Origin: Capitulum mitella
Lineage: Eukaryota > Arthropoda > Thecostraca > Pollicipedomorpha > Pollicipedidae
Length of the DNA stretch: 64,000 nt
Reading direction: 5' to 3'
NCBI GenBank assembly: GCA_030062745.1
Contig: CP099840.1
Location: 10,097,033 to 10,161,032 of the forward strand
Each line of letters opens with the position of its first letter. Position 1 is the stretch's first letter. The notes beneath the pieces are model-generated. The model did no database searches and had not been told where the DNA came from. It saw only the letters and a program-made list of their open reading frames with translations. A program made the translations under genes and the position numbers. Positions 5,255 to 64,000 of this stretch are shown one piece after another.

Positions 5255-5612
5255 GGCAATCCTTTAGAAGCGCACACCATAAACCAAGCACACTGGATGA
5301 CACATATACGGCGCACGTGGCAAAAGGAGACGTCAGCTGTTGCGAGAAACAACAACATTATGCACTGGAGCTCCAGGTCGTAGATCACCTACTATTCACT
5401 CTTGTTTTACACAGTAGGTTAGGTTAGGTTAGGTTAGGTTAGGTAAGGTTAGGTTAGGTTAGGTTAGCGAATAGTAGGTGATCCACGACCCTGGAGCTCC
5501 AGTGCATAATGTTGTTGTTTCTCGCAACAGCTGACATCTCCTTTTGCCACGCGCGCCGTATATGTGTCATCCAGTGTGCTTGGTTTATGGCGCACGCTTC
5601 TAAAGGATTACC
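5255..5612. mobile_element. Foldback/MITE element with (TTAGG)n loop
   Basis: Two arms of about 140-145 bp (about 5255-5400 and 5466-5612) are inverted copies of each other. The ends read GGCAATCCTTTAG and, on the other strand, GGTAATCCTTTAG. The same 9 bp, CTTGTTTCC, flank both sides (5246-5254 and 5613-5621), as expected of a target-site duplication; 9 bp is typical of Mutator-like elements. The loop is a telomere-type tract. It has no coding capacity. It sits in the 5' UTR intron of myosin VI. Confidence 0.75.
5415..5467. repeat. (TTAGG)n tract, about 10 units
   Basis: About ten 5-bp TTAGG units with one TAAGG variant fill the loop of the foldback element. TTAGG is the usual arthropod telomere repeat; here it is internal and enclosed by inverted arms, so it is not a chromosome end. 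Confidence 0.9.
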
Positions 5613-36100: not shown

Positions 36101-39100
36101 CAGGTAAACCACTCCTGCAGAAACGGAGGTACCTGTCTGTCCGCTAAAAACGGGTTCAAGTGTCAGTGCAGCCCTGGTTGGACAGGACTCTTGTGTCGAT
36201 CAAAAGTGGAAACCCCGTCCGCTCCTCCTGTGGATGTTTACCTGAAGAGTTGTCAGGTAAACCACTCCTGCAGAAACGGAGGTACCTGTCTGTCCGCTAA
36301 AAACGGGTTCAAGTGTCAGTGCAGCCCTGGTTGGACAGGACTCTTGTGTCGATCAAAAGTGGAAACCCCGTCCGCTCCTCCTGTGGATGTTTACCTGAAG
36401 AGTTGTCAGGTAAACCACTCCTGCAGAAATGGAGGTACCTGTCTGTCCGCTAAAAATGGGTTCAAGTGTCAGTGCAGCCCTGGTTGGACAGGACTCATGT
36501 GCCGATCAAAAGTGAAAACCCCGTCCGCTCCTCCTGTGGATGTTTACCTGAAGAGTTGTCAGGTAAACCACTCCTGCAGAAACGGAGGTACCTGTCTGTC
36601 CGCTAAAAACGGGTTCAAATGTCAGTGCAGCTCTGGTTGGACAGGGCTCTTGTGTCGATCAAAAGTGAAAGCCCCGTCCGCTCCTCCTGTGGATGTTTAC
36701 CTGAAGAGTTGTCAGGTAAACCACTCCTGCAGGAACGGAGGTACCTGTCTGTCCGCTAAAAACGGGTTCAAATGTCAGTGCAGCTCTGGTTGGACAGGAC
36801 TCTTGTGTCGATCAAAAGTGGAAACCCCGTCCGCTCCACCTGTGGATGTTTACCTGAAGAGTTGTCAGGTAAACCACTCCTGCAGAAACGGAGGTACCTG
36901 TCTGTCCGCTAAAAACGGGTTCAAATGTCAGTGCAGCTCTGGTTGGACAGGACTCATGTGCCGATCAAAAGTGAAAACCCCGTCCGCTCCACCTGTGGAT
37001 GTTTACCTGAAGAGCTGTCAGGTAAACCACTCCTGCAGAAACGGAGGTACCTGTCTGTCCGCTAAAAACGGGTTTAAATGTCAGTGCAGCTCTGGATGGA
37101 CAGGGCTCTTGTGTCGATCAAAAGTAAAAACCCCGTCCGCTCCACCTGTGGATGTTTACCTGAAGAGCTGTCAGGTAAACCACTCCTGCAAAAACGGAGG
37201 TACCTGTCTGCCCGCTAGAAATGGATTCAAATGTCAATGCAGTCCTGGTTGGACGGGCGCCATGTGTCGGACGAAGAAAACGGTAAACGCTGCGTATCAG
37301 CAATGCGTGAAACGGCGCGTGTGCCTGAACGGCGGCTCGTGCGTGGAGGCGTCCAGCCAGACATACAAGTGCGCCTGCCCGCCAGGCTACCGAGGCCGGG
37401 TGTGCCAGACGCGACTGGCGTCAGCCGCGCCGCCGGCGCTGCGGGTCTGCCAGTCAGTGCGCGCCTGCAAAAACGGCGGAAAGTGCGCCGTCGACGGCCT
37501 GAGCTTCAAGTGCGAGTGCGCCGACGGCTGGGAGGGTCGCACCTGTCTGCGCCGCAAGAACCTGTGCACGGACACCGGACCGTGCCAGAACGGCGCGCTC
37601 TGCCGGTACGATTCGCAGCGCGGCTTCCTCTGTGTCTGCCGACACGCCTGGCAGGGCGAGACATGCCAGGTGAGACTGTCGGGCTGGGACAGACGCGACA
37701 GGTGAAACGTTCTCACTAAATGTACGAGCTAACAAAACGAATGTAGAGTCGACGTTTCAAACGGGTCATTTCGACGGAACAGACGTTTTAGCTGAAATGC
37801 TAGATGAAACGGTAGGTGAAGCATCATGGTAGGACAGATGTAGCAGTTGAGTCCGATGAGACGCCCAGAAAAGGTAGGCGTGCCAGGCAAGGCGTATCAG
37901 AGAAGACATCCTGACGGGATATGCGAGTGAGGGTTAATGTCTTGACAGGTTCTTCATGTCGGATGAGACTAGTGCAGATGGACGTCGGGAGCGAATGCTC
38001 ATTTTTTTATGTGCTTTTTGTGAAATAGCAATTGTCCTCTGGGGCGAGGGAAGTTATATTTCCTGGAATTAGCTGATTCAACCACCCATCAGTCGATTCT
38101 CCCATGGAGTCGGAGGTCATTGGATGGTCCCGGAAAAGCGGTGTCAGGGGATTTCTGGAACGCCTTTGGGATCTGAATGGCGTTACGTAGAACCTGGAAA
38201 GTCCTCTGCTGAAAGCGACGTTTGGAGGGACCTGGTCTGAGCGCGTTTGATGTTTCCATGAGCATCGACTTGTTACCTGACATGCACCCTGACCATGTCA
38301 TTAGAAGGGGGGGGGGCTGATTCCGGGCCAGACAGAGTAGTTCACCGCCAAGGTTTTAAAGATGCTCAGCGAATTTCCCCATCTCAAGCTATCCTGTCTC
38401 CATACTGCTAGCGTTTAGCGTGATGCAAGACCGTGATATCAGTAGTAATAACCCGCCTTTCTGGCACCAACGAGGCATTAAAGGACAACGCAACCGTTTG
38501 GTAGTCATGCCGACTGTCACATGGTGGTGTTAATACTTCCTACGCAAAATCAGCCGTTACCTGATGACGCTATCGGATAAGGGGTCGTAGTCTATTTAAC
38601 AAGCCTGAGAATTTAGCACGAAATCCGATCCTTAACATTACCCTAGCAAACTAATGACATCAGATCTACGAAAATATAAAATATATGTCACATCTCATTT
38701 GCCAGTCATTTCTGTTCGCAGTATATACCTCTCATATTGTGTGGCTGTTGGCTTGTTGCTGTCGCCGGTGCCTTTGAACTGTTGTCGTAACATTTTATAG
38801 TCTCTGATCTTCTAAACCCATCAGTGCCCCTACCACACTCTGCAGCTGGTTGTCTACCGCCGTTGCTGGCAGTTTTCGGCCGACTCTGTCGTCTGTCTGT
38901 GTCCAGTTCATGGTCGACTCTGCCGTCTGTCTGGGTTCAGTTCTCGGCCTACTCTGCAGTCTGTCTGTGGGCAGTTCTCGGCCGACTGGGGTCTGTCTGT
39001 GGGCAGTTCTCGGCCGACTGGGGTCTGTCTGTGGGCAGTTCTCGGCCGACTGGGGTCTGTCTGTGTCCAGTTCATGGTCGACTCTGCAGTCTGTCTGTGG

Positions 39101-42100
39101 GCAGTTCTCGGCCGACTCTGCAGTCTGTCTGTGGGCAGTTCTCGGCCGACTGGGGTCTGTCTGTGGACAGTTCATGGTCGACTCTGCAGTCTGTCTGTGG
39201 GCAGTTCTCGGCCGACTCTGCCGTCTGTCTGTGCAGGTCCCGCGGGATCCGTGCAAGCACGACCACAGCTGCGGACCTAACTTTAAATGCAGCCGGGACC
39301 CGACGTCGGAGGCCGGCTACGGCTGCGACTGCGAGACTCGGCCGGGCTGGGGTTCTGTCTCAGGTCAGGGGCTCGCCTCTGCGAGGAGCTCTAAAGAGTA
39401 TAAATAAAATGGAGGGCAGTTAAATTTTCAGAGGTTTCCGAACTTCCGAAATTGGGAAACAGCAAAGCGGGGTAAACCAGTGTGGACTCGGGATACAGGA
39501 GTGCCTTCAACTCTGTGTACGATAAGGTGTTTATTTGTGAAAAAACAAAAGACGCTGTTCTTGTCTAGCAAGTGGAAATATTGTTAGGAACGAATGTGCC
39601 ACATCAGTCATGGATCCAGCAATTGGAAAAAGATCATCGTACTGTTCTCCCGAATATCGCTGGCGTGACTGTTTTTTGCATTTACCATTGGAACCGCAAT
39701 GGACGTGACTGCGCAGCCAGGGTTTTCTTAAGGGGGCGGGGGGGGGAGCGGAACTCAGTGTGAACTGAAATCATACGAAAACTGCCTACCGGGAAGACGA
39801 TGTGCAATGGTTTTCACAAAAACGCGGGCCTAAGGGGGCGCCGACCCCTCCCCCCTCCTTGGCTGCGCCTGTGCATTGGAAAAATGTGTCAGTGAAGGGG
39901 GAGTGGCAACGCTTGTCCTTTGGATTGGCGCCGAGATATTTTCTTGCAGGTAAGACCCATCTGGTCGATGCTCTTCCGCCTGGTCGATGCTCATCCGATC
40001 GATGCTCTGTTCATCTCATTCGGCACATAACACTGATACATTTAAATAGAACGAGATCAAGTGAAGAACATCTTTTGTTTCGCAGAAAAGAATCCCAGTT
40101 GTGAAATAAAGAACTACTGCAAAACAAAAGGAGACCACTGCCGGAATGGAGGCACCTGTATCCCGGGCAACGGTGGTAAGTGTCTCCGTCTGGATCTGAC
40201 GAGGAGCTGACATGCGACGTCCTCCAACTACCGCAGCGTGTCACGTCGGCGCCTGCTGTAGACGTGGGTAAACCTTAACGGCAAAGAATGCATCTCCGGT
40301 TGGATGTGGCCCGGTTATTACTCACGTTTCATGCAAGGACCCTCCATTTTTGTCTTTATTGCAATGAAACACATTGTGGAATCGTTTGGCACTCTGCCTT
40401 GTAAATGGGGACGCGGGAACGAAGTGCGGTGATCATCTGATCCAAATTTGTGCCGGGCGAACCCACACCTTGGCGCATTTCGGTCTCCCATCATGCCTTC
40501 AGTCTGAGAAGGGGTCCGGCGTTTGCCGGCCCCAGTTTTGGGCTATGCCTAGTTTAGCGGACTCCACTTTTGGGGAGTTTAGGGAACTGGCAATTGTCTG
40601 TGGCGATAAAACTGGCTGGGCTCGTGCGTATAATGGCCAGTACCGTCGGGTACAGTCCGTCCCCAGGCATGCATTTCGTGTGCTTATCACGGGTCGCACC
40701 ATTCGCGTGTAGCTGTACAGCTGTGGGAGCTGCCTGGTGTCTGCCGGCCGTCTGTCTCTGGACGTCCAGGGTTGCGGCTGTGTCGTCACCACGTTGCGGC
40801 CTGCGTGGCGGTGTGCAGGACGGAGGCTGTTCCGGTGCCAGTGCCCCAGCGCGTGGTCGGGCGCCGCCTGCGAGCGGCCGCGCGACCCCTGCGGCCCGCG
40901 CTCTCGGCACGCCCGCCTCTGCGGCTCCGGCTTTGTCTGCACACGCCTGCCGACCTCCGTGGCTGGCTACAGCTGCAACTGTAAAGGCCGGCCCGGCTAC
41001 GCTGCCAAATCCGGTCAGCAGACAACGGCAGCAGCCAGTGTGCGGGACGGCTAGGAGGGCTGACTGTGCTAGAGAGACGTGCGGCAGCCCGTGTTAAAAC
41101 GGGTCAGATGGCGTCTGGTCACTTGGTTGTTCTGTGCTAAAGCTCAGGCTGTCCGCCCCTTCCCGTACTGGTCATTCTCCGGAATGTCGAGTATCATTTT
41201 AATCCGCGTTGTATTTGACGGCCCAGAGTACGAGTGACAGTTCTGTATACATCGTCCATGTTTGTACGCATTTTCGCAGCCGTTTGCTGCAGAAAGTATA
41301 TATTTGCAGTCCGTATATACCTATATGAAAACACCAGTGACCATGTGATTGAGCTGTTGAGTCTACCGGTTTTTCTTTCCTCACCTCATTATCGGTTGCA
41401 TGTACCATTGCCGTTGTTTTGCGGCCTGGCGCTGTCTCGTGAGCCCACCGTGGGATGTGCCTCAGCCACCGAGCCGCGCTGCGTGGTGAAGGACCGGTGC
41501 AAGGCCAAACGTCCTTGTCTGAACGGCGGCACGTGCTCCACCTCGCCGGAATCGGGCCGCGAATACACGTGCACGTGCAACCCGGCCTGGCGGGGCCAGA
41601 ACTGCGAGGTGAAGAACGACCCGTGCACCACGGCTCTCAACAGGTGGGACTTCTGCCGTCGTCGCTCCACCTCTCACCGGAGACGCCATTGGAACCGTGT
41701 GGTCTGATGTTAAACCAGGTGACACACTGGCGCCGGCGTCGGTGGCCTGCGTCTGCGGGCGTGATGTTTGGTCGGTAATGGTGGAATCTCGTGCTGACCA
41801 GGTGCGGAACCGGCTGGAAGTGTAGGCGAGACCCGAGCCACGCGTCCGGCCACAGTTGCGGCTGCGGCTCCCGGCCCGGCTGGACCGTCAAGTCAGGTAC
41901 CGATGTCCGGCTGTGCACGGCCTATCCGTGCCTCCGCCCCGTGCCTGCGAACCGTGATTGTGTGCTCGTGTTCGTCATGCACTGCTGGGTGGATTCGCTT
42001 GGTCGAAGGGATGCAGCCCAGAGCGTGCTTGAGAGGTCGCGGTTAGTGGAAAAACCGGGCCCGCCATATGGGTGCGACCTTCCCGGATATGTCGGACCAA

Positions 42101-45100
42101 ATGACAGGACCTTTCGAGAATCTTCGGGAGGCAACGTGTCGGGGCTAAATATCCATTATTCCTTCACATTATCTCATGGCTGGATCCCTGCACCAATCGT
42201 CAAACGGCTGTTTCCGATGAGTACGAGTGTGCGTATGCGTGCATATATGTACAGACAACGAAGGACTCAGTCTAACTAAATGCATACTGTTGTCCTGCTG
42301 ATGTGGGATTGAGACAAACTGACGGATGGTGTTGGGTTGGCTGACATCACACCGATGGCCACGTGTGAAAGGTATCCCGTGTCGCTCTCTCCGTGTTCCT
42401 GACGTTGCCATCGTGGACTAACAAATGCCTATCGGTTGAGCTGAATGAGGACGGAATCATTCGCTGTGTTTACTATAATGTTTTGGTTTTATGGTATCCG
42501 CTGCGGCCACCTGGGTAAATGCCTGTCACCTCTGAGTGTTTTTACGTTATCTGCCGTTCGGCTTTCGTTCGTTATTAATGCGTTACTGCTGAATGGGAAA
42601 ATGGTCAGTGGATGTTCATGCCATGATCCTTTGTCTTGATTGTTCTTGGTTCTTGTTTCTTTTCTTCGTTTCTTCTTGGACCATGAATGAAGATCCATGG
42701 TTCTTGATTTTATTTGTTTGCTTGTGTGTTTTTTTTTGCTTGATTTTGGTTTCTGAGCATATGCGGCGGGTAAATAGGTGATTGTGCTTTGCTCTTGGGA
42801 ATTTTTGCTATGATGATCAGTGGTCTGAAAACTGGCTTGTCTGCTTGTGTCCGGCGGTCGGCCGCAGTCTGTTATATTTGTCAGTCGGTTGCAGTATGTT
42901 GTGTCTGTCGGTCTACCTGCTGTGTGTGTCAGTTTGCCGTGGTCTGCTGCGTCCGTCTGCCAATTTGCTGTGTCCGTCGGTTTGTCTGGGCGTCCGTCGG
43001 TCTGTCTGTTGTGTCTGTCGATCTGTCTGCGGTGTCTGCCAGTCGGCCGTGGTCTGCTGTGTCCGTCTGTGTGCTGTATTTGTCGGTCGGCCGCCGTCTG
43101 CTGTTTCCGCCGCCTGCTGTGTTCGCCAGTCTGTCTGCCGACCGAGGCGGCAGACAGACTGTTTGCTGTGTCTGCCGATCTGTCTGCTGTGTATGTCGAT
43201 TTTTCTACTTTGTCCGTCGGTCGGCCGTGATCGCACTGTGTTTTGTGTTTATCTGCTATGTTTGCCAGTCTGTCTGTTGTGCCAGTGCCGGTCGGCCGTG
43301 GCGTTCCGTGTCCGTCAGTCTGTGTGCTGTGTCTGTCGGCCTGTCTACTGTGTTTGTCAGTCTGTCTGCTGGGTGTGTCGGTCGGTCGCAGCGCGGGCGC
43401 GGTGGCGCGCTCTCCCCGGCCGACTGAGCGCCGGCCTGTGTCCGCCGCCGCCAGACACGGAGCCGGCCTGCGTGGTGGCGGACGTGTGCGCCGCTCGCCG
43501 GCCCTGCCTGAACGGCGCCACCTGCCGGCGCGGCCCGGCCCGCTTCAGCTGCCTGTGCCGGCCGGCCTGGAGCGGCCGCCTGTGCCAGCTGGCTCGGGAC
43601 CCGTGTCCGCAGCAGCGCGACCTCTGCGGCCCCGGCTTCAACTGCACGCGCAGCGAACAGAGCGCCGCCGGCTACACCTGCCACTGCGGCCGGCGGCCCG
43701 GCTGGGCGCGTGTCTCCGGTACGCGGGACGGACTAGCGTCCCGCCCTCACTGCGGGCTGGGGTCGCTGGCTTTGAGTGAGCTTTAAGATAGGCGTATCAT
43801 CTAATTTGGTGCTTAGCCATATCTGCATTTAACACTGAGTTTGTTTGTTTGTGTCTTTTTTGGCCGGACTATGCAGTTTTAATGGAATGTGATACGTTAA
43901 ACTTGGATTGGACAATTAGTTTTATCACTGTTCCTTCTCTTTAGCCCTCAGCCCTGAATGTCACATCGAGGATATCTGTCTGGCGGACAACCCGTGCCAG
44001 AACGGCGGTACGTGCATCTCACGCGGCGGCACCATGTACGAGTGCAGCTGTCCGCCGGCCTGGCAGGGCAGCGTCTGCGCTGAGGAGCGGGACCCGTGCT
44101 CGGCCGGCCCGGCCACGCTCTGCCAGCCGCGCTTCCCCTGCTCCAGAGAGCCGCGGAAGGCGCTCGGCTACGTCTGCGACTGCGCCAGACCCGGCTGGAG
44201 GCCGCTGTCGGGTCTGTTCCGAGTTCGGCCCGTCTGCACTCCGTTTCGAAATGAGACGGGCCTTAGCTGACGTCTCAAACGAAATGAAGCTTTCCCTTTC
44301 TGACCTTTGAGTTTCCCTTAGATATTTTATTTAAATGCCGAATACTTTTTGCAAAGCCACCTTTTAGTAACATGTGAATATTTTGTTTCACTTTTTGATG
44401 AATTAAAGGAATCTTGATAACGCGTTTTTATGCATGACAGTGAGAATTTTAATGCAGTTTATATGTGTCTTTAGGCGTGATTGCTCTTCCGATGGCTTTG
44501 ATTATCTTCTGGTGGTTGTCAGCCTGCGGGGCTGCTGACAGTTCCTCGGCTGTTTGCAGACAGCAACCCGCGCTGCGTCGTGTCGGACGTCTGCCTGGCT
44601 CGCAGCCCGTGTCTGAACGGCGGCACGTGCTCGCCGCGGGACGGCGGCCTCTACACGTGCCGTTGCCGGCCGGCCTGGGACGGCGCCACGTGCCAGCGGC
44701 CGCGTAACCCGTGCGCCGACGGTCAGCCGTGCGGGATGGGGTTCACGTGCCGGCGCGAGCCGAGCTCTGTGGCCGGGTTTGCCTGCGACTGCCGGCGCCG
44801 GCCCGGCTGGGGCGCCAAATCCGGTGAGTCGGTCCGACTGACGCCTGCCGCTCACCATCAGCACCTGCCGGACATCCGGCGATTGGCGTTATGGTTAAAT
44901 TCTGTTGATGTAGGCCTGTTGTCTTACATTTAGGGTTCCTGTAGTGAGTAATTACTTTTCAACAGAAGAACTACATCATTTTTTCATCTGGACAGTGCTG
45001 ATAATCACAAAATACGGATGAGGAGCAGAGACAAGACGTTGGCGTTTATTCCTCATCCCTAATCTACCACTGAAGGAATCCATATTCTTATCCTGTGTGC

Positions 45101-54100: not shown

Positions 54101-57100
54101 TCTGTTTGCCTTTGTAGCTTTGTTGACGTTCTGTTGCAGCCATGCGGCGATTGGACAGTGATTTGAATTTATTAATCATATAATTCAACAGTCTGCACTA
54201 CATATTTTTGCACTTGATCCTGTAGTTGGCGCGTTTGGGTTTGAGTTGCGAACTGTGCGACATCCGTACCGACGCTAGTCCTCCCTCTGTCTGCCCGTCA
54301 GCCGAAAACCCCAAGTGTACAGTGTCCAACATCTGCTTGGCGGCGCGAGACGTGTGCCACCACGGCGGCACGTGCACCAGTCTGGGCGGCCGCCAGTACC
54401 GGTGCCAGTGCGCGCCGGCCTGGCGCGGCAAGCGGTGCACGTACCCTGCAGACCCGTGCGCCGGCGAGCCGCTGGCGCGACCGTGCGGCGCCGGCTGGCA
54501 GTGCCGGAGGGCGCCGGCCGCATCGCTCGGCTATAACTGCAGCTGCGACGCCAAGCCCGGCTGGCGCGCCAAGTCCAGTGAGTTCGGCGGCCGACCGTCG
54601 CCCCCCCCCCCCCGGCAGCTCTCTGTGTGGCAGCGTCTGGCGTGAAGCGCTGTCTCGTGGCTGGCCCTCGTTGTTACGACTTCCATCTGCATGTCGAGTG
54701 ATTATGCTGTATACCAGCGGAGGCTGATTGGTTATTATGACAATGACACCGATCGAACGCAGCCGACCACCTTATCCCGGGGCGGTCATCAGCGCTTGGC
54801 TGGCGCTGACGGCTGGTGTCTGGTCGTGGCCAGGGTCCGACCCGCGCTGCGTGGTGTACGACCGGTGCCAGGCGGAGAAGCCGTGCCTGAACGGCGGCTC
54901 GTGCACGCCCCGCCGCTCCGGCTTCGTCTGCACGTGTCCGCCGGCCTGGACGGGCGCCGTGTGCGCCGACACGCGCGACCCCTGCGACGCTGAGGAGCAG
55001 ATGTGCGGCCGAGACTGGCGCTGCGAGCGCGACCCCAAGGTGGCGATCGGCTTCAGCTGCGGCTGCTCGAGCAAGCCCGGCTGGCAGCCGGTTAGCGGTG
55101 AGCCCTGGCCTCTGCAGGCTTAGCTTCTGGATGAAACGGTAAAGGAAATTCGGGTTTTTTTGGGGTGTCTGTCTGATCCGCGCCTAGTATCTCCGGTCTT
55201 GTGTTCGCATGGCCGACAGAATACCCATCTCGCTTCAAGGGCGTGGTCGCTTGTGGTGTTTCGTTTGCGGAAACAGGCGTTGTTTCCCACGACCCCTGCG
55301 AGTCCGGGTGACGGCAGTTGGCCTGCTTGTCAACAGCCAGCGACCCTCGCTGTAAGATATCGGACGTGTGCCTGGCCCAGTCACCCTGCCAGAACGGCGG
55401 AACCTGCACATACCACGGGCAGGGCAACTACACCTGCAGGTGCGACTTCGGCGTCGACTTGTGTCCGGCGCTCCGCGCATGCCGACCGCACAGCTGGGGC
55501 GCCCTTAAGACCAGACAACCAAAACAGTACTGTGTCCTGATTCAAAAGCATGGTTGTGTTATGCCATTTGTCTTCGAGCTTCAGAACGGACGGAATACTC
55601 CTCATTATCATGCAGTCGGCGTTGTTTGTTACCTGACCTGACCTGACTTGTCCGCCAGCTGTTCTCCTGCCTGGGTCGGCCAGGACTGCACCACGCCCCA
55701 GTTTCCGTGCGCTGAGCAGCCGAACCCGTGCGGTGAAGAGTGGCCTTGCCAGCGTGACCCGGACTCTGAGGCGGGCCTCACCTGCTCCTGCCACACCCGG
55801 CCCGGTTACGTAGCCAAGTCAGGTCAGAGACGGCGGCAGGTCATAGCAGTTCACTGCCACGTCCCTGTGGCCAGAAATACGGTCTGTCGCCGCTCTGGAC
55901 GATATGAATTCACTTGCACTCTGCTCGCAGCCATCTGTCGAAACACGTAAGTCATAGGAAGTAAACTTTCCGTTTCTTGAGTCGACCCGCGTTATCTGAC
56001 GCTCTTCCCTTCAGACAGATATTTGATGGCCCGTTGCTCCTTCTGACAGACATGACGGCGCAGTGTGTGACGCCTGTCACGTCTGATGGTTCGGTGCTCC
56101 ATCTGGCAGACGAGGCACCGCGGTGTGTGACGTATGTCTGTCTGACGGCCTCGGTGCTGCGTCTGACAGAGAAAGAGCCGCAGTGTGTGGTCAGCGATGT
56201 CTGCCAAGCCACGTCTCCGTGCAAGAACGGCGCCACCTGCCGGCTGAGGGGCGACGGCCGAGAGTACGGCTGCGACTGTCTACCCGCCTGGACCGGCGTC
56301 AACTGCGAGCGCGAGCAGAACCCGTGCGACCGCGACCGCCAGCTCTGCGGCGACGGCTGGCAGTGCGGCCGCAACCCCAACAAGCCGGTGGGATACACCT
56401 GCGGCTGCAACACGCGGCCTGGCTGGCGCGCCACCTCAGGTGAGAGGGCACTGGCCGACGGAATCACCGGTGAACTGGCCTCTCCTTGGAGTTTGGCGGA
56501 GCTAACGACGCCTCTTGGCTACCTTTGTGCTTTTGGTCATTTGCAGAATTTAAGTCTCGTCAGAAAGCGCGATTTTGGTACCCGCCTTGATAACGCTTAC
56601 ATGATTGCTCGGTATATTTAAAATCACGTATACGCGGCATGCCCCAGTGAGCGTTCTGAATGCACACCTGTCTACACTGGCATTTCCCTCAGTCAAGATA
56701 TTAGTGAGCTGTTTTGTAGCGAACACTTAAAGTTGGAAGCTCTTGGTGTTGTATACGTAAACTGTGTTTGCACGTCGTTTGAGTGATGTGCGCGTGCGGC
56801 GTCCCGGCCGGAGGTGAGGCGGCACGGGTGCTGGTGTCGGCCGTGCCGCCGGTGACGCCGCCCGTGTCGGCAGACACGGAGCCGCGCTGCCAGATCAGCG
56901 ACGTCTGCCTGGCGACGCGGCCCTGCCAGAACTCGGGCGTCTGCACGGCCCGCTCCGGCGGCGGCTACAGCTGCAAATGTCTGCCGGCCTGGCGCGGCCA
57001 GAACTGCACCCGCACGGCCGACCCCTGCACTGCGGCTGGGGTCAGTCGGCCGGCCGGACGGCCCGCAGGGCCATGGCGGCGGCGGGCACCGGCAGGGGGA

Positions 57101-57979
57101 GGTCGGCAGACGGTTCTCCAGTGCCGCCGGATACGTCTGACTAGTAAAACAGCAGCACGGGTGATGTGGTCTGCCAGCTAACCTTTAGTGCGCAGAATGT
57201 GCTCACTCTTCCTGGGTGGCATTGTTGGGCTACTTCTCTCGAGTCCTGTCGGCCGTGGCTGGCCGAAAGTGGTACATTTCCCGGCTGACCGCGACGCTTT
57301 GTGACAGATTGACTGCGGCAAGGGGTTCCAATGCTCCAGAAACGTATCGTCGCCCGTTGGCTATAGCTGCAACTGTCCCATCAAGCCCGGCTGGAAGCAG
57401 CATTCAGGTATTCACACTCGTCAGTGGTCAAATAGTGGTAAATCTACGATCTAAAGTGCTAGATGTCAACTGCGCTATATACTCTGACGCACTGTGCGGT
57501 GATGTTTCAGTCCAGGCTTCCTGCTGTGTGCTGTGTTACGCGCTGTGTGGTGGCGTTTCAGTCCAGGCGCCCCGCTGTGCTGTGCGACGGGTTTTGTGGT
57601 GGTGTTTCAGCTCAGGCGCCCCGCTGTGTGCTGTACGACGCCTGCCTGGCCACCCAGCCCTGTGAGAATGGCGGCACGTGCACGCCGGCGCCGGGCGGAG
57701 CGTTCAGCTGCGAATGCAGTGGCGCCTGGAGCGGTCAGACCTGCAACGTACCCAGAGACGTCTGCGAAACAGGGGTCAGTGGTCGGCACCGCTGACGCGG
57801 AAGGACGCCTTTCTGCCGCCCGGGCAGTCAAAGGAAGCCGGTGAAAGTGCCTCGTTATCACAGTCTTCCTGCACTTTTGTGACTTTTGATACACCTACGT
57901 CGGTATCTGGTTTTGGCACAGTTTACGTTTCATTGGTTTTTCTTTGATATGAGTATTTGGCGCGTCGCGATATTTGTTT

Positions 57980-58015
<36 letters not shown>

Positions 58016-61000
58016 ATGTGTGTGTTACTGTTATGTTTGGTACATTTTTATTTCTACAGTTTTACTTTTGTCTGCATATTTGTCACTCACATTTTCACTT
58101 AGAAATACGAGACATGGAACTTTTTCCAAATATTTTTTCTTAGCTCGCTTTGTGCATTCCAGTCATTGTTACGCACGTGACACAGTCTAGCTATATATCT
58201 TGCAATTCTTTTTTGCAGTCACTGCGGCACTGTTCTCCCGTGTGACACTTCTGTAGTTAAATATGTTGCATTTCTGATTTGTTACCGCTGCCGAAATATT
58301 GTTTTTGCCTGTGTGGTGTGTCGATAGTGGTGTGTATGCCTGTCTGTGTCTGTCCCGGCAGCACGCGCTGTGTGGTGCCGAGTGGACGTGTGAGCGCGAC
58401 ACCAGCCGGCCAGTCGGCTACAGCTGCGGCTGCGAGAAAAAACCCGGCTGGAAGAGCGTCTCAGGTGGGCCCAGAGGCCGGCTGACGTCATGGCCGAGAG
58501 ACGGTGACCTGATCGTGTCGGGCCGGGTTTTGGTGCTCGTCAGGCAGTCGCGGCGGCGAGGCGCAGTTTACGGCGTTTTTTAGCTGACGTCAGTTCATCG
58601 TTTTTTGTCGATACAGAAAAACGAGGTTGGACTGTTATCGTTCCTTTCGCTGCTGTCAGTTTAGTTGTCACTACTGTGGCCTGCGCTGACGTCACAGCCC
58701 ATCCGTCACGCATTTAAAGGGTGCTCTTCCCCTCCCCCACACTGCTGACATCACGGTCGTCTTTCGGTCGACGGTCGGCAGGCAGCGAACCGCAGTGCGA
58801 GGTGGCCGACCCCTGCATAGCGCTTCAGCCCTGTCGCAACGGTGCCACGTGCCTGGCCACGGCCAGCGACACGTACCGCTGCACGTGCCTGCCGGCCTGG
58901 ACGGGCACCACGTGCGACCAGCCGCTGGACCCGTGCGTGGCGACCCCCTGCGGGGAGGGCTTCGAGTGCCAGCGCGACCCGACGGCGCTGGCCGGCTTTC
59001 TGTGCGGCTGCGACTCCAGGCCCGGCTGGGACGCCAAAGCAGGTGCGTGGCTGTCGCGGCGGCCCCCAGGCGCACGCGGACGGGTTCCGAAGGTCCGGGA
59101 TCCACGGCCCGGTTGCCGTGTGGTGGAGCAGCCGTGTGGTGATCCGTCTCGGCGTCCGATGGTTCAGCCGACTGGGGATCTGGTTGGCTCGTTGGCTCGT
59201 CGAGTCTGATGACAGTCTGATGTCTCTGCCGGCAGCGGACGATCCGCGCTGTATGATCCGGGACCAGTGTCTGGCCAGCAGCCCCTGCCAGAACGGCGGC
59301 ACTTGCGTACAGGGTGGCGCGCACGATTTCCAGTGTAACTGCGCCGGCGCCTGGACCGGTGCCACCTGCGAGTCGGCGCGCGACCCGTGCGAAACCGAGC
59401 AGACGGTCTGCGGCGCCGGCCGCGCCTGCACGCGCGATCCGGGCTCACCGGCCGGCTACAGCTGCAACTGCCACAGCACACCCGGCTGGCGGGCCAACTC
59501 AGGTCAGTTGCCGTGCCCCCCAGGGTGACCTGACCCAAGCGAAGCCTGCCACTGTGATGACCTGTCTCCGCAGCTAAGCATCACGCATTCGCGTCGATCA
59601 CTGTCCATTTGCATTTAGTGGACCCCGCACGAGCGGTGAATGGTAACCGTAGCCCGGGACCTGGACTATGTCCACAGCTGAAGACCCCATCTGCGTGGTG
59701 GACGACGTCTGTTTGGCGCGGACGCCCTGTCTGAATGACGGCATCTGCACCAGTCTGGAGGACGGACGGTTCAAGTGCACGTGTCGCGGGCTCTGGAAGG
59801 GCGTCACGTGCTCGGAGCCGCGCCATCCGTGCCGCGAACTTGCCCGCTGCGGCAAACATTTCACGTGCCAGCTCGCACCGCACTCCTCTGCCGGCTACAC
59901 GTGCAACTGTGAATCAGTACCGGGCTACTCAGCCAAGTCAGGTCAGTGGCCGACCCAGTCCCGCTGTCACAGCAGGTCATTGTCCATCCCAGTCGACCTC
60001 GATCAGGCCGGTAAACGTCCTAGTCTCCCTGGATCAGGTCAGTGGCCGACCCAGTCTCCTTGTCAGGTTAGTTTAGTTGCCGACCCAGTCCCCCGCCAGG
60101 TCAGGCCAGTGACCATCTCAGTCCTACTTGGTCAGATCACTCCAGCCCCAGCATCCAAGCGGCAAATATTTGTTGCAACGAATCAGTTGTTCCGTGTCTG
60201 CGCTCAAGTGAGGGGTGCTTAGTGTGATGTGGCGCGTGTGTTCTCCATACTTGGATCCTCTTCGTGAGGTGACGAACGTATGCCTGTCGTTTCCAGACTG
60301 AGCTCCTCAGCGTTAGGTGACGAACGTGTTCCTGTGTTCCCCTGACTGGGAGCCCCAGTGTGAGGTGGCGCCTGTGCTCCCAGATTCGGACCCCCAGTGC
60401 GAGGTGACAGACGTATGCCTGCAGCGGCAGCCCTGCCAGAACGGCGGCACCTGTGAAAGCCGACCGAATCTCCAGTACAAGTGCTCCTGTCCGCCCGCCT
60501 GGAAGGTCAGAGCAGCGCTATATTAATCTGCTCCGCTGCGGCCCACGTGATTGGTTCTGGTCTCATTCCTGGCATGGACATGCTTCAAACAACAAGATCA
60601 CTCAACGATTGGTCACATAACTCAGATTTTACGGACGGCTCGAAGTCACATTTCTAGGTACAAACGATGTGAAGTCTGCTCCTGTCTGCTGTGTCTAGTT
60701 TGTATTAATAGTGGTGTCTGGGAGCGGGTCAAGGCCCTTCACAAGTCACCTGTATATTCTTGAGACTGACACGAGGTGTACAGTCCACCTGGTGTCTTCG
60801 TTGGCTGATGATCCCCCACACCGTCCCCCGCCCTCACCCAACATTTGTACGTGTTTGATCCGTCGTGTTTGGCAGGGTCTGGACTGTCAGACGCCGGCCA
60901 ATCCGTGCGAGGGAGCCACAAATCTGTGCGGCGGCGGCGGCGCCGTCGGTACGTGCCAGAGAAACCCCAACAGCCCTCTAGGGTTCTCCTGCGGCTGCTC

Positions 61001-64000
61001 ACAGACCCCCGGTTGGGAGGCCAGTTCAGGTGAGCTGTTCACAGGCCCTCGGCTGAGAGGCCAGCTCAGGTGGTCTCCTGACAGACCCCGGCTGGGAGGC
61101 CAGTTCATGTGGTCCGCTGGCAGATCCCAGACTGAGTCCAGTTCAGGTGGCATGATATCACAATATCACCTCCCCCCGCTGGAGGCCGATTCAAGTTAGC
61201 ACACACGTGCCGCGAATGGGATTAGATCTTGCAGCGCATATCGTTTATTGGCGGCTCCGACAGACGTCATTTCGCCCTACAACCCATCACGACGGTTAAC
61301 GTAACGGAAGTGAAATGCCCCGATCAGCAAACTTTGTAATGCAGACCCTTCGATCCACAGTCGAGTGTGCCAGCTACCGGACTACGCATCCGCAACATAT
61401 CTTTAACAGCATGGCCGCTGTCGCAGTCTGGTCGCTATTCTGCGGCCTGCCGCCTTTTCAGACGCTGACCCTCACTGCGTCCTGGTGGACGAGTGTCTGG
61501 CAAACCAACCGTGCAAGAACGGCGCCACGTGCGCGGCTCGTGCCCGCGCCGGCCACACGTGCTCGTGCCGGCCGTCGTGGACAGGAGCCACGTGCGAGGA
61601 GCCGCGGGACCCGTGCGAGGCGGGCGCCGACCTGGTACGACGCGGTCGGAGGGTGGCGGCCTGTTCCGGTTGTAGTCCCGCGCGTCAGCGGGGGGATGCG
61701 GAGTGTCAGTGCCCGAGTCCTGAAACCCTCCCTGCGCAGACATTCAGCTGCCCCCCCGATGATTGGTGTCATTTTGAGCTGCACCGTCCCTTGCCGTTGA
61801 ATGGGCTTACAGACCCAGCCTGAGTTTGGCAATAAGCTTTGCTGAATGGCACGAGGACTCATTTGCTTCGTAGGTACTCGAGAGCGTCACTAGTTCTCAG
61901 TTCAACATGGAAATCGATGATGCTCTGGTAAATGCCGACGACGGCCGTGCGACCTGGCGGTTTGCAGCAGCCAGTCACTGTCTACAAATGCAATGCACTG
62001 GTAATTGCCTCATGGGAAATCCAAGAACAGCCGGCCATCTCCGTTCCTTCATTTCGGCAGTTCACCCCGGCCACGGAGACGGTCATGTGCCGTTGTGTTT
62101 TCAGTGCGGGGCCGAGTTCAAGTGTACGCGGGACGCCGAATCTGAGCTGGGCTACAGCTGCGGCTGCGACAGCCGGCCCGGCTACCAGCCTACGTCAGGT
62201 GGGCCGACCGGGCCCGGCGCCACCCCTCCCCCATCCTGCCGTATCCACCGTGCCGCCAGTGTCGGAGCACGCGTACAGAGTCCGGATATGTCAGCATCCG
62301 TCCACTGTATCACCCAGTGTTAACCTTGCACTTGTGGGAAAACGGTCCTGCGACCCCGCTTCCGTTCTTCATTGGTTTTCGACAGAAGGCTTTGGCGAGG
62401 CTTGCCACACTTTCGGCCACTATTCCCCGGTCGGTTGGGCGTTGTATGGTGCCAAAAAGTTTTCCCCAGATTGAAAAAGGTCAGCGTCAAAGGACAGGTC
62501 GTATAGTTACGTGGCAAAGTCACGCGTTCGTACAAGCATCCATATCCTCTAAAACGGTACCTAAAAATGAATTCCGCATTGTCCGTAAACGTTCTGGGCG
62601 AGTGTCCGTCTCAATCCACAGGTAAAGTCTTAATCGAGACTTTACCTGTAGTAATAATTCAATCTTTTTGGCAATAAAGTCTTACCCCACCCGGTGGAGT
62701 ACGACTTTATTTTTAGAAGCCTGTAGGAAAAAAGGAGTAAGTTCACGCTGTTAAGAGATTAATACATCACCTTAAGCGGGATAATGAGCAAATGTTTGCT
62801 TCTCATCATGGGATTAAAACATGAAGTACCTCGCTTCACTTCCAGGATATGTCGTCTTATAAGCAAGGGTGGTTCGGCTCACCCCACTCTCCCCTAATAT
62901 ACAGCTTTGTTCACTGTTGCCGGTAAAATACAACAGTTCTTACATCACTGAGCCTGCGCAGTTTATTAACCGGAGAAGCTGTCATCATTTCTAACATGAC
63001 ATCACTGTGCCGAAACTGGTGAAGCAACCATCACCATCTGTTACAAGAACGGTCACCGTTTCATGGCACATTTAGTGGTAGCAACATCAAACCATTTGGA
63101 AGAGAAGTGTTCTTCATAAAGCGTGGCCCATGGCACACAAAAACCTGGTGCAGCCGCGCGGACGGCGTTATTTTGTACGCAGGCGTCGGATGGTGAAAAA
63201 GGAAACTTCAGCCTCAATTTCCAAACATCGTCTCCAAATTTTTGCAATAATCGGACAATTCGGCGATGTGCGCGGCATCGCCGTCGTTTCATGCAATTCC
63301 GATGAGTGCACCAAAACACGGAATGGGGGGGATGGGGCTAGAAACTCCTCACCAAAGCCAGGGTTAAATGTAGTGCTACTACGGTGGTGACACGGGAAGC
63401 CTGGCGAAGGCTGTTGTTATAAACCCGTTCACTACGTGGTCTGGACTTGGACGCGTCCGCGCAAGTGATGGTGGAGCGCTTTGTGCTCGTGCGCCGACAG
63501 ATAGCAGTCCACGGTGCCGCGTGGTGGACCAATGCGTCGCGCTGAAACCCTGCCAGAACGGTGCCACCTGTACTCCAACGGTAGGTCACGTCCGTCCGCC
63601 TGCGGCACTCGCGGCCGAGCCGTCGCCGACTGCAGCGCTTAACGCCGCCCGCGTCACCGCCTCAGCGCTTACAGCCGCCTCAGGCGTCAGTGTGCGTCTT
63701 CAAATTGCCGCCCATGCCGCCGCTAACCACAATGTACAGCAGACGTGCTGATTACCTGTGTAGCGACAGTGGTGTTGGTCTGGCGTTGCAGGCGGACGGC
63801 CAGTTCAGCTGCGCATGCGCGGCCGGCTGGAGCGGCCAGACGTGCACCTCGGAGCGGGACCCATGCGTGCTGGAGCCGGCGCCGTGCGGCTCCGAGTGGC
63901 CGTGCAGCGCGCGGTCGGACTCCCCTGCCGGCTACAGCTGCGGCTGTGACAGCCGACCCGGCTGGGTGGCCCGCTCGGACGCCGATCCGCGCTGCGTGCC
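33092..64000 (+). CDS. Giant modular EGF-repeat protein gene (40 exons seen, 3' end outside)
   Basis: Secreted or membrane-exposed protein of at least about 3,450 residues. It starts with a signal peptide ([18 protein letters not shown]) and is then almost entirely EGF-like domains, about 74 in all. Its repeating module is a canonical EGF (C…PC.NGGTC…C.C.PAW.G..C) followed by an EGF-like variant (DPC…CG..W.C.RDP.S.AGY.C.C..RPGW…SG), whose sixth Cys is the 'P.C' at the start of the next exon. Most modules are one exon of 261-276 bp, phase 1 to phase 1. All exons listed below join without a stop or phase error. EGF arrays usually serve adhesion, matrix or ligand binding; I recognise no ortholog, and no transmembrane or other domain is in view. 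Coordinates span introns. Confidence 0.9.
33282..33435 (+). CDS. EGF gene exon 2
   Basis: Acceptor TCGCTTGTCAG, entry phase 2, exit phase 0 (TGTGTC|GTAAGT). It reads [18 protein letters not shown] and ends [14 protein letters not shown]. The cysteines RC, NC and EC serve as the first three of an EGF finished in exon 3. A second acceptor (CTTTTCCAG) 11 bp inside would be out of phase. Confidence 0.7.
34916..35150 (+). CDS. EGF gene exon 3
   Basis: Phase 0 in, phase 1 out. It ends the first EGF ([13 protein letters not shown]) and carries the variant EGF ([16 protein letters not shown]…RPGWTVVSG). Without exon 2 it looks like a module missing its first cysteines. Confidence 0.8.
35409..37669 (+). 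CDS. EGF gene exon 4: 15 EGF domains
   Basis: Phase 1 in (acceptor TTCCTTTTACAG), phase 0 out (GAGACATGCCAG|GTGAGA). DLIPTC gives the sixth Cys of the exon 3 domain. Then come three diverged EGFs, nine nearly identical ones of 51 residues each, two diverged ones ([16 protein letters not shown]) and a last one (PCQNGALC…ETCQ) whose variant partner is in exon 5. It is by far the largest exon and contains no introns, unlike the rest of the gene. The linkers are Thr/Ser/Pro-rich, for example [18 protein letters not shown]. Confidence 0.92.
35924..37300 (+). repeat. 153-bp coding tandem repeat, 9 units
   Basis: GTGGATGTTTACCTGAAGAG recurs at 35924, 36077, 36230, 36383, 36536, 36689, 36842, 36995 and 37148, exactly 153 bp apart. 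Units differ by only a few bases, many of them synonymous; the ninth is the most diverged. The order of LL/LM and KT/ET variants suggests a three-unit block was itself duplicated. Confidence 0.95.
38870..39236 (+). repeat. Acceptor-bearing minisatellite before exon 5
   Basis: Units of about 34 bp carrying CTGTCTGTGGGCAG, a pyrimidine tract plus CAG, run right up to the real acceptor (CTGTCTGTGCAG|GTCCCG). About nine units, so about nine acceptor-like sites. Confidence 0.85.
39237..39363 (+). CDS. EGF gene exon 5
   Basis: Phase 0 to 1. [18 protein letters not shown] to RPGWGSVSG: the variant EGF belonging to the last EGF of exon 4. Confidence 0.9.
39690..39870 (+). repeat. Dispersed repeat, copy 2 (in intron)
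   Basis: Same block order as 6910-7070, with a G-run at the left and CCCCTCCCCCCTCCTTGGCTGCGCC at the right; TGCGCAGCCAGGG before the G-run mirrors GGCTGCGC after the C-run, as in a terminal inverted repeat. Confidence 0.65.
40086..40175 (+). CDS. EGF gene exon 6
   Basis: Phase 1 to 1. [16 protein letters not shown] to [12 protein letters not shown]. First half of an EGF; the intron lies between the third and fourth cysteines. Confidence 0.8.
40819..41013 (+). CDS. EGF gene exon 7
   Basis: Phase 1 to 1. [18 protein letters not shown] completes the exon 6 EGF, followed by the variant EGF to RPGYAAKSG. Confidence 0.85.
41466..41643 (+). CDS. EGF gene exon 8
   Basis: Phase 1 to 2. [18 protein letters not shown] to DPCTTALN plus AG. 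The EGF and the first Cys of the variant EGF. Confidence 0.85.
41802..41896 (+). CDS. EGF gene exon 9
   Basis: Phase 2 to 1. [19 protein letters not shown] to RPGWTVKSG, the rest of the variant EGF begun in exon 8. Confidence 0.88.
42850..43400 (+). repeat. (CTGTCTGY)-rich minisatellite before exon 10
   Basis: Irregular units of about 20-30 bp built on CTGTCTGCTGTGTCTGTCGG fill the intron end. Long open frames through it come from the repeat and run into exon 10 by chance. Confidence 0.8.
43455..43718 (+). CDS. EGF gene exon 10 (full module)
   Basis: 264 bp, phase 1 to 1. [12 protein letters not shown] to RPGWARVSG: complete double-EGF module. Confidence 0.92.
43945..44211 (+). CDS. EGF gene exon 11 (full module)
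   Basis: 267 bp, phase 1 to 1. [18 protein letters not shown] to RPGWRPLSG. The donor GTCTGT is weak. Confidence 0.88.
44560..44823 (+). CDS. EGF gene exon 12 (full module)
   Basis: 264 bp, phase 1 to 1. [18 protein letters not shown] to RPGWGAKSG, donor GTGAGT. Confidence 0.93.
45356..45628 (+). CDS. EGF gene exon 13 (full module)
   Basis: 273 bp, phase 1 to 1. [18 protein letters not shown] to RPGWAAVSG. Its last bases and donor (GGCCGTCTCCG|GTCAGT) seed the long minisatellite that follows. Confidence 0.93.
45610..46175 (+). repeat. Donor-spanning minisatellite after exon 13, about 27 units
   Basis: Units of about 18-24 bp read GGGCGGCCGTCTCCGGTCAGT. The first unit is the exon 13 end and its own donor. 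About 23 of the units keep GTCAGTG, so the array is a ladder of possible 5' splice sites. Confidence 0.95.
46398..46569 (+). CDS. EGF gene exon 14
   Basis: Phase 1 to 2. [18 protein letters not shown] to DPCADTPA plus CT, donor GTACGG. It is joined by exon 15, which supplies CGQRW. Confidence 0.8.
46984..47400 (+). repeat. Acceptor/exon-start minisatellite before exon 15
   Basis: GCTGGTCTGACGC units are interleaved with about five copies of a GTGTCGACAGCCGTGGCCAG-like segment. The last copy is the true acceptor plus the first coding bases of exon 15. Confidence 0.85.
47379..47743 (+). CDS. EGF gene exon 15 (half module fused to a full module)
   Basis: 365 bp, phase 2 to 1. [19 protein letters not shown] ends the exon 14 module, then runs without an intron through [16 protein letters not shown] into a whole next module ending RPGYTNGTG. 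Confidence 0.88.
48456..48716 (+). CDS. EGF gene exon 16 (full module)
   Basis: 261 bp, phase 1 to 1. [18 protein letters not shown] to RPGWRARSG. Confidence 0.93.
48956..49219 (+). CDS. EGF gene exon 17 (full module)
   Basis: 264 bp, phase 1 to 1. [18 protein letters not shown] to KGWGSENG; the usual RPGW is replaced by KGW. Confidence 0.92.
49537..49800 (+). CDS. EGF gene exon 18 (full module)
   Basis: 264 bp, phase 1 to 1. [17 protein letters not shown] to RPGFRPVSG, acceptor with a long T tract. Confidence 0.93.
50175..50438 (+). CDS. EGF gene exon 19 (full module)
   Basis: 264 bp, phase 1 to 1. [18 protein letters not shown] to RPGYQPTSG. An in-frame alternative acceptor at 50153 (CTGTCTCAG) would add seven residues. 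Confidence 0.9.
50774..51040 (+). CDS. EGF gene exon 20 (full module)
   Basis: 267 bp, phase 1 to 1. [18 protein letters not shown] to RPGWAPKSG, donor GTGAGA, followed by copies of its own 3' end. Confidence 0.93.
51016..51300 (+). repeat. Donor-spanning repeat after exon 20, about 5-6 units
   Basis: CCCGGCTGG…TCCG|GTGAGG…CCTCCTGCC recurs with spacing of about 50 bp. The first copy is the end of exon 20; later ones keep the RPGW codons and GTGAGG or GTGTGA donors. Confidence 0.9.
51300..52690. other. Intron, AT-rich, no gene
   Basis: No exon seen. Contains TGACCTCA / TTGACCCGACC words like those at 25000-26100 and 34000, and a G-run at 52445. Confidence 0.4.
52700..52864 (+). repeat. Acceptor-region repeat before exon 21, 3 units
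   Basis: TGTGCTGTCAGTCCTTCCAT TTGGTCTGCTTCTCAGG-type units of about 50 bp recur three times up to the true acceptor (CGCTGTGTTTCAG). Each has a pyrimidine tract with CAG. Confidence 0.75.
52865..53134 (+). CDS. EGF gene exon 21 (full module)
   Basis: 270 bp, phase 1 to 1. [18 protein letters not shown] to KPGYRRTS plus C; the junction codon is not Gly here. Donor GTGAGT. Confidence 0.92.
53496..54032 (+). CDS. EGF gene exon 22 (two modules, no intron)
   Basis: 537 bp, phase 1 to 1. [17 protein letters not shown] to [14 protein letters not shown], then [12 protein letters not shown] to APGWNATSG. The link SAQKPGC stands where other modules have an intron. Confidence 0.92.
54302..54577 (+). 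CDS. EGF gene exon 23 (full module)
   Basis: 276 bp, phase 1 to 1. [19 protein letters not shown] to KPGWRAKS plus A, donor A|GTGAGT. Confidence 0.92.
54834..55097 (+). CDS. EGF gene exon 24 (full module)
   Basis: 264 bp, phase 1 to 1. [18 protein letters not shown] to KPGWQPVSG. Confidence 0.93.
55337..55439 (+). CDS. EGF gene exon 25
   Basis: Phase 1 to 2. [18 protein letters not shown] to GNYTC plus AG; the intron falls between the fourth and fifth cysteines of the EGF. Confidence 0.88.
55659..55822 (+). CDS. EGF gene exon 26
   Basis: Phase 2 to 1. [10 protein letters not shown] completes the EGF, then the variant EGF to RPGYVAKSG. Confidence 0.9.
56020..56169 (+). repeat. Acceptor plus exon-start repeat before exon 27, 3 units
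   Basis: CGGTGCTSC.TCTGACAG followed by a GARSCRCAGTGTGTG-like exon start appears three times about 65 bp apart; the last is used by exon 27. All three copies could encode the 'PQC V' opening. Confidence 0.85.
56170..56439 (+). CDS. EGF gene exon 27 (full module)
   Basis: 270 bp, phase 1 to 1. [18 protein letters not shown] to RPGWRATSG. Confidence 0.92.
56874..57040 (+). CDS. EGF gene exon 28
   Basis: Phase 1 to 0. [18 protein letters not shown] to ADPCTAAG, donor GTCAGT. Confidence 0.88.
57308..57407 (+). CDS. EGF gene exon 29
   Basis: Phase 0 to 1. [20 protein letters not shown] to KPGWKQHSG, second half of the variant EGF. Confidence 0.9.
57480..57640 (+). repeat. Acceptor plus exon-start repeat before exon 30, 3 units
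   Basis: GTGGTGGTGTTTCAGCTCAG and a GCGCCCCGCTGTGTGCTGTA-like exon start recur about 50-65 bp apart; the last copy is exon 30's true edge. Confidence 0.9.
57611..57774 (+). CDS. EGF gene exon 30
   Basis: Phase 1 to 0. [18 protein letters not shown] to RDVCETG, donor GTCAGT. Confidence 0.87.
57980..58010. repeat. (TA)n microsatellite in intron
   Basis: About 13 TA units followed by a TGTG run. Confidence 0.9.
58362..58464 (+). CDS. EGF gene exon 31
   Basis: Phase 0 to 1. [20 protein letters not shown] to KPGWKSVSG, completing exon 30's module. Confidence 0.9.
58782..59042 (+). CDS. EGF gene exon 32 (full module)
   Basis: 261 bp, phase 1 to 1. [18 protein letters not shown] to RPGWDAKAG. 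Confidence 0.92.
59236..59502 (+). CDS. EGF gene exon 33 (full module)
   Basis: 267 bp, phase 1 to 1. [18 protein letters not shown] to TPGWRANSG. Confidence 0.93.
59678..59941 (+). CDS. EGF gene exon 34 (full module)
   Basis: 264 bp, phase 1 to 1. [18 protein letters not shown] to VPGYSAKSG, donor GTCAGT followed by copies of itself. Confidence 0.92.
59935..60115 (+). repeat. Donor-spanning repeat after exon 34, about 4 units
   Basis: TCAGGTCAGTGGCCGACCCA recurs exactly once at about 60036 and in diverged form at about 60063 and 60098. Each contains a GTCAGT- or GTTAGT-like donor. Confidence 0.8.
60225..60420 (+). repeat. Acceptor plus exon-start repeat before exon 35
   Basis: The block CCCCAGTGYGAGGTGRC, with CCTGTGYTCCC before it, appears immediately upstream of and inside exon 35. 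More diverged GAGGTGACGAACGTATGCCT copies lie at about 60260 and 60315. Confidence 0.75.
60384..60505 (+). CDS. EGF gene exon 35
   Basis: Phase 1 to 0. [18 protein letters not shown] to CSCPPAWK; the intron falls between the fifth and sixth cysteines. Confidence 0.87.
60876..61029 (+). CDS. EGF gene exon 36
   Basis: Phase 0 to 1. [18 protein letters not shown] to TPGWEASSG. Confidence 0.9.
60990..61150 (+). repeat. Donor-spanning repeat after exon 36, 4 units
   Basis: CACAGACCCCCGGTTGGGAG GCCAGTTCAG|GTGAG is copied three more times about 40 bp apart with decaying donors (GTGGTC, ATGTGGTC, GTGGCA). Confidence 0.88.
61462..61634 (+). CDS. EGF gene exon 37
   Basis: Phase 1 to 0. [18 protein letters not shown] to [10 protein letters not shown], donor GTACGA. 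Confidence 0.87.
62105..62198 (+). CDS. EGF gene exon 38
   Basis: Phase 0 to 1. [19 protein letters not shown] to RPGYQPTSG. Confidence 0.9.
63501..63580 (+). CDS. EGF gene exon 39
   Basis: Phase 1 to 0. [18 protein letters not shown] to NGATCTPT; the intron falls after the third Cys of the EGF. Confidence 0.87.
63792..64000 (+). CDS. EGF gene exon 40 (runs off the edge)
   Basis: Phase 0 in. [18 protein letters not shown], then the variant EGF to [15 protein letters not shown] with no donor before the next module, so another fused two-module exon is starting. Confidence 0.9.

Follow-up and report, generated by a model that had tools for sequence, protein, structure and literature searches.

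The tandem EGF gene and its exons

The window, which is the whole 64,000-nucleotide stretch analysed here, carries on its plus strand a gene for a tandem EGF-like protein, with 39 exons running from 33293 to past position 64000 (Table 1). Exon ends were placed by hand from the spacing of Cys codons and from GT-AG sites and were then checked; the model begins at E1, and any exons 5' of it fall outside its scope. The translation is 3430 aa long, contains 446 Cys and 0 stops, and keeps its frame across all 39 exons. The product of E9-E11 matches the Pfam EGF family (PF00008, E 4.3e-16) and includes three EGF stretches.

The exons follow a modular plan. Nineteen of the 39 are of phase 1-1 and 16 of the 39 are 261-276 nt long, while an additional intron divides several other modules (e.g. 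E7/E8, E24/E25, E27/E28 and E29/E30). By reading of the translation, the phase-1 intron separates the fifth Cys of an EGF from the sixth. Two exons are built differently: E14 (47379-47743) holds the end of one module plus a whole second one, and E21 (53496-54032) holds two whole modules, layouts that look as if an intron had been lost. In E3 (35921-37254), about nine near-identical EGF units of 153 bp (51 aa) stand in tandem (TRF: 8.7 copies, 96% match), which points either to recent expansion of the coding sequence or to strong homogenisation of the array.

Repeats and mobile elements also occur elsewhere in the window. A 55-bp array of 5.5 copies (90% match) lies at its left end (181-490), and a (TAGGT)n tract at 5415-5467 is a repeat of the TTAGG type, which is found in arthropod telomeres and hints that the DNA comes from an arthropod. 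A 48-bp array of 9.3 copies (10767-11215) encodes 16-aa repeats in a 471-aa minus-strand ORF. The 382-aa ORF at 13159-14307 matches DDE_Tnp_4 (E 2.3e-26) and is presumably a Harbinger-like transposase. Two 276-bp tandem copies at 16977-17530 (97% match), a recent duplication, overlap the start of a minus-strand ORF. Non-LTR retrotransposon fragments at 27465-29796 include an endonuclease-like match to PF14529 (E 5e-6; 26.8 bits, just below the 27.4 cut-off), followed by ORFs read by eye as reverse-transcriptase-like.

Minisatellites at the exon-intron junctions

The sequence-only reading had proposed that at ten junctions of this gene the exon edge, together with its splice site, was copied in tandem into the intron. 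TRF places an array at or beside every one of these junctions. With the copies aligned in register, exon bases and the splice site lie inside the repeat unit at eight of the ten, four donors and four acceptors. At E4 and E20 the proposal does not hold, as 3 bp and 10 bp, respectively, separate the array from the exon.

Table 1. Host gene and tandem arrays in the window. Exons are numbered as in the present model, one lower than in the sequence-only reading. Extra copies are those beyond the one at the exon; at acceptors they lie upstream.
Feature	Exon in sequence-only reading	Position	Strand	Layout or repeat unit	GT or AG kept in extra copies
Host gene		33293..64000	+	E1 33293-33435 to E39 63792->64000, open at window end	
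E4 array	5	38868..39233	+	eleven 32/34-bp units; ends 3 bp before exon; no exon bases	
E9-upstream array		42845..43387	+	diverged 16-27-bp repeats; ends 67 bp short of acceptor; counter-example	
E12 donor array	13	45613..46174	+	27 copies of 21-bp unit (15/21/23-bp variants); 16 exon bases + GTCAG	GT 24/26 (copies selected with four donor hexamers, hence biased)
E14 acceptor array	15	46996..47396	+	11-bp sub-repeats in 36/63/74-bp higher-order unit; acceptor + 18 exon bases	AG 2/4, in register
E19 donor array	20	51014..51293	+	46-53-bp unit; 27 exon bases + donor	GT 4/5, in register
E20 array	21	52705..52854	+	three 49-bp units, CAG-bearing; ends 10 bp before exon; no exon bases	
E26 acceptor array	27	56024..56189	+	60-bp unit; acceptor + 20 exon bases	AG 2/2
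E29 acceptor array	30	57486..57641	+	51-bp unit; acceptor + about 30 exon bases	AG 2/2
E33 donor array	34	59938..60140	+	degenerate 31/96-bp unit; about 4-10 exon bases + donor	GT 1/3 in one alignment; donor-like GTs 5 bp off at 60067 and 60100
E34 acceptor array	35	60243..60431	+	about 4 diverged copies of 48-bp unit; acceptor + about 38 exon bases (by eye)	AG 1/3 (by eye)
E35 donor array	36	60995..61150	+	40-bp unit; exon end (about 20-35 bases) + donor	GT 3/3, in register; strong donor score in none

In structure these arrays are minisatellites: their units stand head to tail, with main periods of 21-60 bp (11-bp sub-repeats at E14), and the copies are not identical. The match between copies within an array is mostly 60-90% (TRF) and differs from array to array, so the arrays are probably of different ages. 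By reading of the TRF output, the main period is a multiple of 3 in four of the ten, close to the one third expected by chance, and a coding role of the units was rejected on this ground. The array upstream of E9 is a counter-example, with no copy of the junction (the junction scores 23, a value that 2% of null draws reach).

The relation of each array to its junction was assessed by local alignment of a 40-mer across each of the 76 junctions with the adjacent intron, against a null of 100 draws from other introns for each. For nine of the ten named junctions the score, 29-59, exceeds every one of their own null draws; only the E20 acceptor among them finds no match in its adjacent intron above the null. 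The E15 donor also passes this cut with a score of 19, which is regarded as chance given 76 tests. When the 76 junctions are ranked for each array, the array's own junction comes first for eight (E4 included) and 51st for E20; for E34 it comes second, and first (32 vs 29) with a longer exon stretch. Among the eight junction-spanning units, the own junction is thus first in seven and second in E34. Between arrays no clear resemblance is seen: the top score in 45 cross-array comparisons is 29, and 200 shuffled pairs reach at most 28. Because the units match their own junctions and not clearly each other, the arrays look like separate events rather than one family, and on this point the sequence-only reading, which saw a recurring process, is borne out. 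By the same scores, no related sequence shared among many introns, the mark of introner-like elements, was found.

These comparisons bear on two other origins. Inheritance of the arrays along with the exons, from one ancestral exon already carrying an array, would suit a gene whose exons are paralogous and whose boundaries correspond. This reading is largely contradicted, and we consider it exceedingly improbable: the units match their own junction well above others, the cross-array scores barely leave the shuffled range, and only 10 of 76 junctions carry arrays, donors and acceptors mixed. An assembly or sequencing artefact deserves thought since tandem arrays are error-prone in assemblies. 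It is nonetheless very improbable, as the copies differ and come in unit-length variants (15/21/23 bp at E12, 32/34 bp at E4), a pattern that mis-joining the same copy over and over would not produce.

Exons were searched for the mirror image of these arrays. In 74 junction tests (E3 left out) the best exon-side copy of a junction scores 28, close to the weakest accepted intron-side score of 29, and no clear mirror arrays were seen in exons.

On the intron side, the arrays make up 9-71% of their introns, and 2437 of 20417 intron bp overall. Median length is 606 bp among the eight introns that carry arrays and 342 bp among the remaining 30 (P 0.035, one-sided), in line with the earlier suggestion that the arrays lengthen introns.

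Placement of the arrays and the GC-rich halo of exons

All placement tests were devised post hoc, after the arrays had been seen. A first test used 20 TRF arrays (score 50, period at least 10, wholly exonic arrays dropped): seven overlap an exon edge where 2.8 are expected (P 0.018), and ten lie within 20 bp of one where 4.3 are expected (P 0.0065). At TRF scores of 40 and 30, overlap gives P 0.023 and 0.009. A second set comprised 14 arrays merged by hand, and unevenly so, with gaps of up to 94 bp joined upstream of E9 and a 47-bp gap after the E19 array left. Here, 7/14 whole arrays overlap an edge (2.3 expected, P 0.004), and 10 of the 11 that are at least 100 bp long lie within 20 bp of one (2.8 expected, P 1e-5). 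Placement within the arrays' own introns gives P 0.008 for overlap of the 14 and 7e-6 for the 11 within 20 bp. A seed test asked the same of single units, with unit lengths entered by hand from TRF: 8/14 span a junction, compared with 1.7 expected at random (P 6e-5). The E34 array, whose TRF end is 16 bp short of the exon, counts as non-overlapping in the whole-array test and as spanning in the seed test.

Base composition accounts for a good part of this pattern. GC content is 71% in exons (E3 left out), 50% in array-free intron and 62% in the arrays. Measured in steps of 30 nt, it is 67% and then 61% moving away from donors, and 60-61% in each of the two steps nearest to acceptors, so that boundary DNA resembles exon DNA. 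With GC-matched placement, overlap is no longer significant for all 14 arrays (P 0.13) and reaches P 0.047 for the 11 longer ones; proximity within 20 bp gives P 0.045 and 0.003, respectively. The seed test retains its excess, with 8/14 against 2.9-3.6 expected (P 0.002-0.008).

The simple notion that repeats concentrate at edges was also considered and is contradicted by the per-base repeat density, which has no edge peak (E3 left out): it is about 4-7% in the 30 bp next to an edge and 8-10% more than 60 bp away. This measure does not separate edge-anchored arrays from free ones. The sequence-only reading had called for a comparison with random placement; the arrays exceed it in overlap and in seeds, but not in GC-matched overlap of the full set or in base-level density. 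We read the anchoring at junctions as real, with a good part of it following the GC-rich halo of exons. The 2- to 3-fold excess that remains over GC-matched placement is suggestive, and post hoc.

That excess is what would be expected if a factor tied to the boundary, such as splicing-linked R-loops or repair guided by the AG|GT sequence, favoured tandem duplication at junctions. Eight separate events in one gene, split evenly between donors and acceptors, point the same way. We consider such junction-targeted mutation unlikely: the tests are post hoc, the repeat density lacks an edge peak, and GC-matched overlap of all 14 arrays is not significant. Selection may add to the excess as well, since an acceptor duplication that carries the whole signal would be less harmful than one that splits it.

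Of the GC-rich windows of 48 bp, 45% lie wholly within exons, but only one of 15 arrays is found there (P 0.0016). E3 and its coding 153-bp repeat had been removed beforehand, and no GC filter was applied to the 15 arrays. At TRF score 50 there are two exonic arrays, with periods of 18 and 153, both multiples of 3. Score 30 adds three short ones (periods 12, 10 and 10), which makes 4/31 exonic with E3 dropped. This fits a picture in which duplications arise in GC-rich DNA generally, those inside exons being mostly removed and those crossing an edge tolerated.

Copied splice signals and the origin of the arrays

The arrays multiply motifs that resemble strong splice sites, as had been anticipated. 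Donor-like sites number 25.6 per kb in donor arrays vs 2.8 in array-free intron, and acceptor-like sites 16.3 per kb in acceptor arrays vs 1.8, so that by motif score such sites are about nine times denser in arrays. Sites of the opposite type are more frequent too, at 7.7 per kb for donor-like sites in acceptor arrays and 7.3 per kb for acceptor-like sites in donor arrays; part of the enrichment is therefore a matter of composition. A hand count of 47 site-like copies puts 18 in frame, 11 of them also stop-free; most would therefore break the protein if used. The exon-side copy is taken to be the working splice site.

The position of Cys residues at the exon ends gives no sign of array copies in the protein. 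The first Cys is residue 5 in all 26 phase-1 starts tested (E1, E3 and E6 left out). Of 27 phase-1 ends (E5 left out), 24 have their last Cys 10 residues before the exon end, and the remaining three have it 9 residues before. Only phase 1 is counted, and the test is partly circular, since this pattern guided the placing of the exon ends. It shows that each of these exons has an in-frame splice site at that spacing. The length-variable exon ends envisaged in the sequence-only reading thus find no echo in the model.

Such variability would follow if the arrays were a functional ladder, their copied sites being used in alternative splicing to vary exon ends, or to tune output through the destruction of frame-shifted transcripts. 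The density of site-like motifs speaks for this, as do individual copies: four at E12 score equal to the true donor (10.9), and at E26 an upstream acceptor scores 11.2 vs 8.7 for the one in the model, the two upstream acceptors giving in-frame, stop-free extensions of 60 and 120 nt. E26 is accordingly the best candidate for real variation, with two in-frame open upstream acceptors, one of them predicted to be stronger than that modelled. As an account of the arrays in general, the functional ladder is unlikely, given the small share of copies that are in frame and stop-free, the constancy of exon ends across paralogous exons (with the same circularity) and the loss of GT or AG in some copies.

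These losses amount to 2/26 copies at E12, 1/5 at E19, 2/4 at E14, 2/3 at E34 (by eye) and 2/3 at E33 (in one alignment), and to none of the extra copies in register at E35 (3), E26 (2) and E29 (2). Overall they seem about what decay without selection would give. At E12 the donor hexamer has 5/163 changes vs 26/245 in other non-CpG columns (hand sums; insertions not counted), in copies that are not independent of one another; this could be a weak hint of constraint, and the other arrays are mixed.

Taken together, the arrays are probably ordinary minisatellites, born independently at the exon-intron boundaries of a GC-rich, exon-duplicated EGF gene whose protein they leave unaffected. A short segment straddling a boundary would be duplicated by slippage or unequal exchange, and the array would then grow into the intron. 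The exon-side splice site would still join the correct exon, so the protein would stay unchanged and the mutation survive, as the constant exon ends support; boundary arrays would be tolerated because that site survives. Like duplications inside exons would mostly be removed by selection, as their scarcity suggests. Later decay of the extra copies would leave decoy splice sites behind as a by-product. Two observations count against this explanation: GC alone leaves an excess of junction-spanning seeds, and the splice signal is less changed in the E12 hexamer and keeps its GT or AG in every register copy at E35, E26 and E29.

Relatives of the junction arrays and their significance

A 1995 paper, cited in PMC2572611, reports a minisatellite that provides multiple splice donors in an interferon-induced transcript. 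The likeness lies in tandem repeats carrying a splice donor; that case is a single transcript with splice use claimed, whereas here the DNA shows eight junctions, donors and acceptors. The transcript reportedly belongs to the IFI6 / 6-16 gene.

In human duplicated genes, variable internal tandem repeats at exon-intron boundaries, with units averaging 30 bp and about 4 copies, can change splicing (PMC2812944). They share with the present arrays minisatellite-type units at boundaries and a setting of recently duplicated genes; they are described from many genes, with RNA support and variation among paralogues, whereas ours cluster in one gene. A tandem duplication across a boundary, with the splice signals copied along, made a new intron in potato, as shown by RNA-seq (PMC4974935). 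That case involved one duplication; the present arrays hold many copies, and no new intron is apparent. Novel Drosophila introns likewise have direct repeats or tandem duplication at their splice sites (PMC2809761), so that repeats overlap splice sites in both systems. Those introns are new; the present ones sit at positions common to paralogous exons, which argues against a new-intron origin, and have only grown. Intron minisatellites of an earthworm metallothionein gene were set aside as kin, since in the excerpts of PMC12783039 the repeats lie within intron 1 and copying of splice sites is not mentioned.

A literature search of open-licence papers brought up no case in which one gene carries many junction-spanning minisatellites. 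Junction minisatellites are thus known as a kind, and eight in a single gene looks unusual.

The gene offers about ten natural copies of the same experiment, in which a splice site was duplicated in place from a few to 27 times. The arrays allow a direct test of how the splicing machinery chooses among near-identical sites, and a test of exon-edge tandem duplication as a steady source of intron growth. If the GC-matched excess held genome-wide, it would point to a mutation process linked to boundaries. On present evidence it is unlikely that junctions in this genome seed tandem duplication preferentially, over and above the effect of their GC content, and that genes with duplicated exons keep sprouting spare splice sites. 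If true, such a boundary-linked mutational process would feed intron lengthening, intron sliding and new exon ends.
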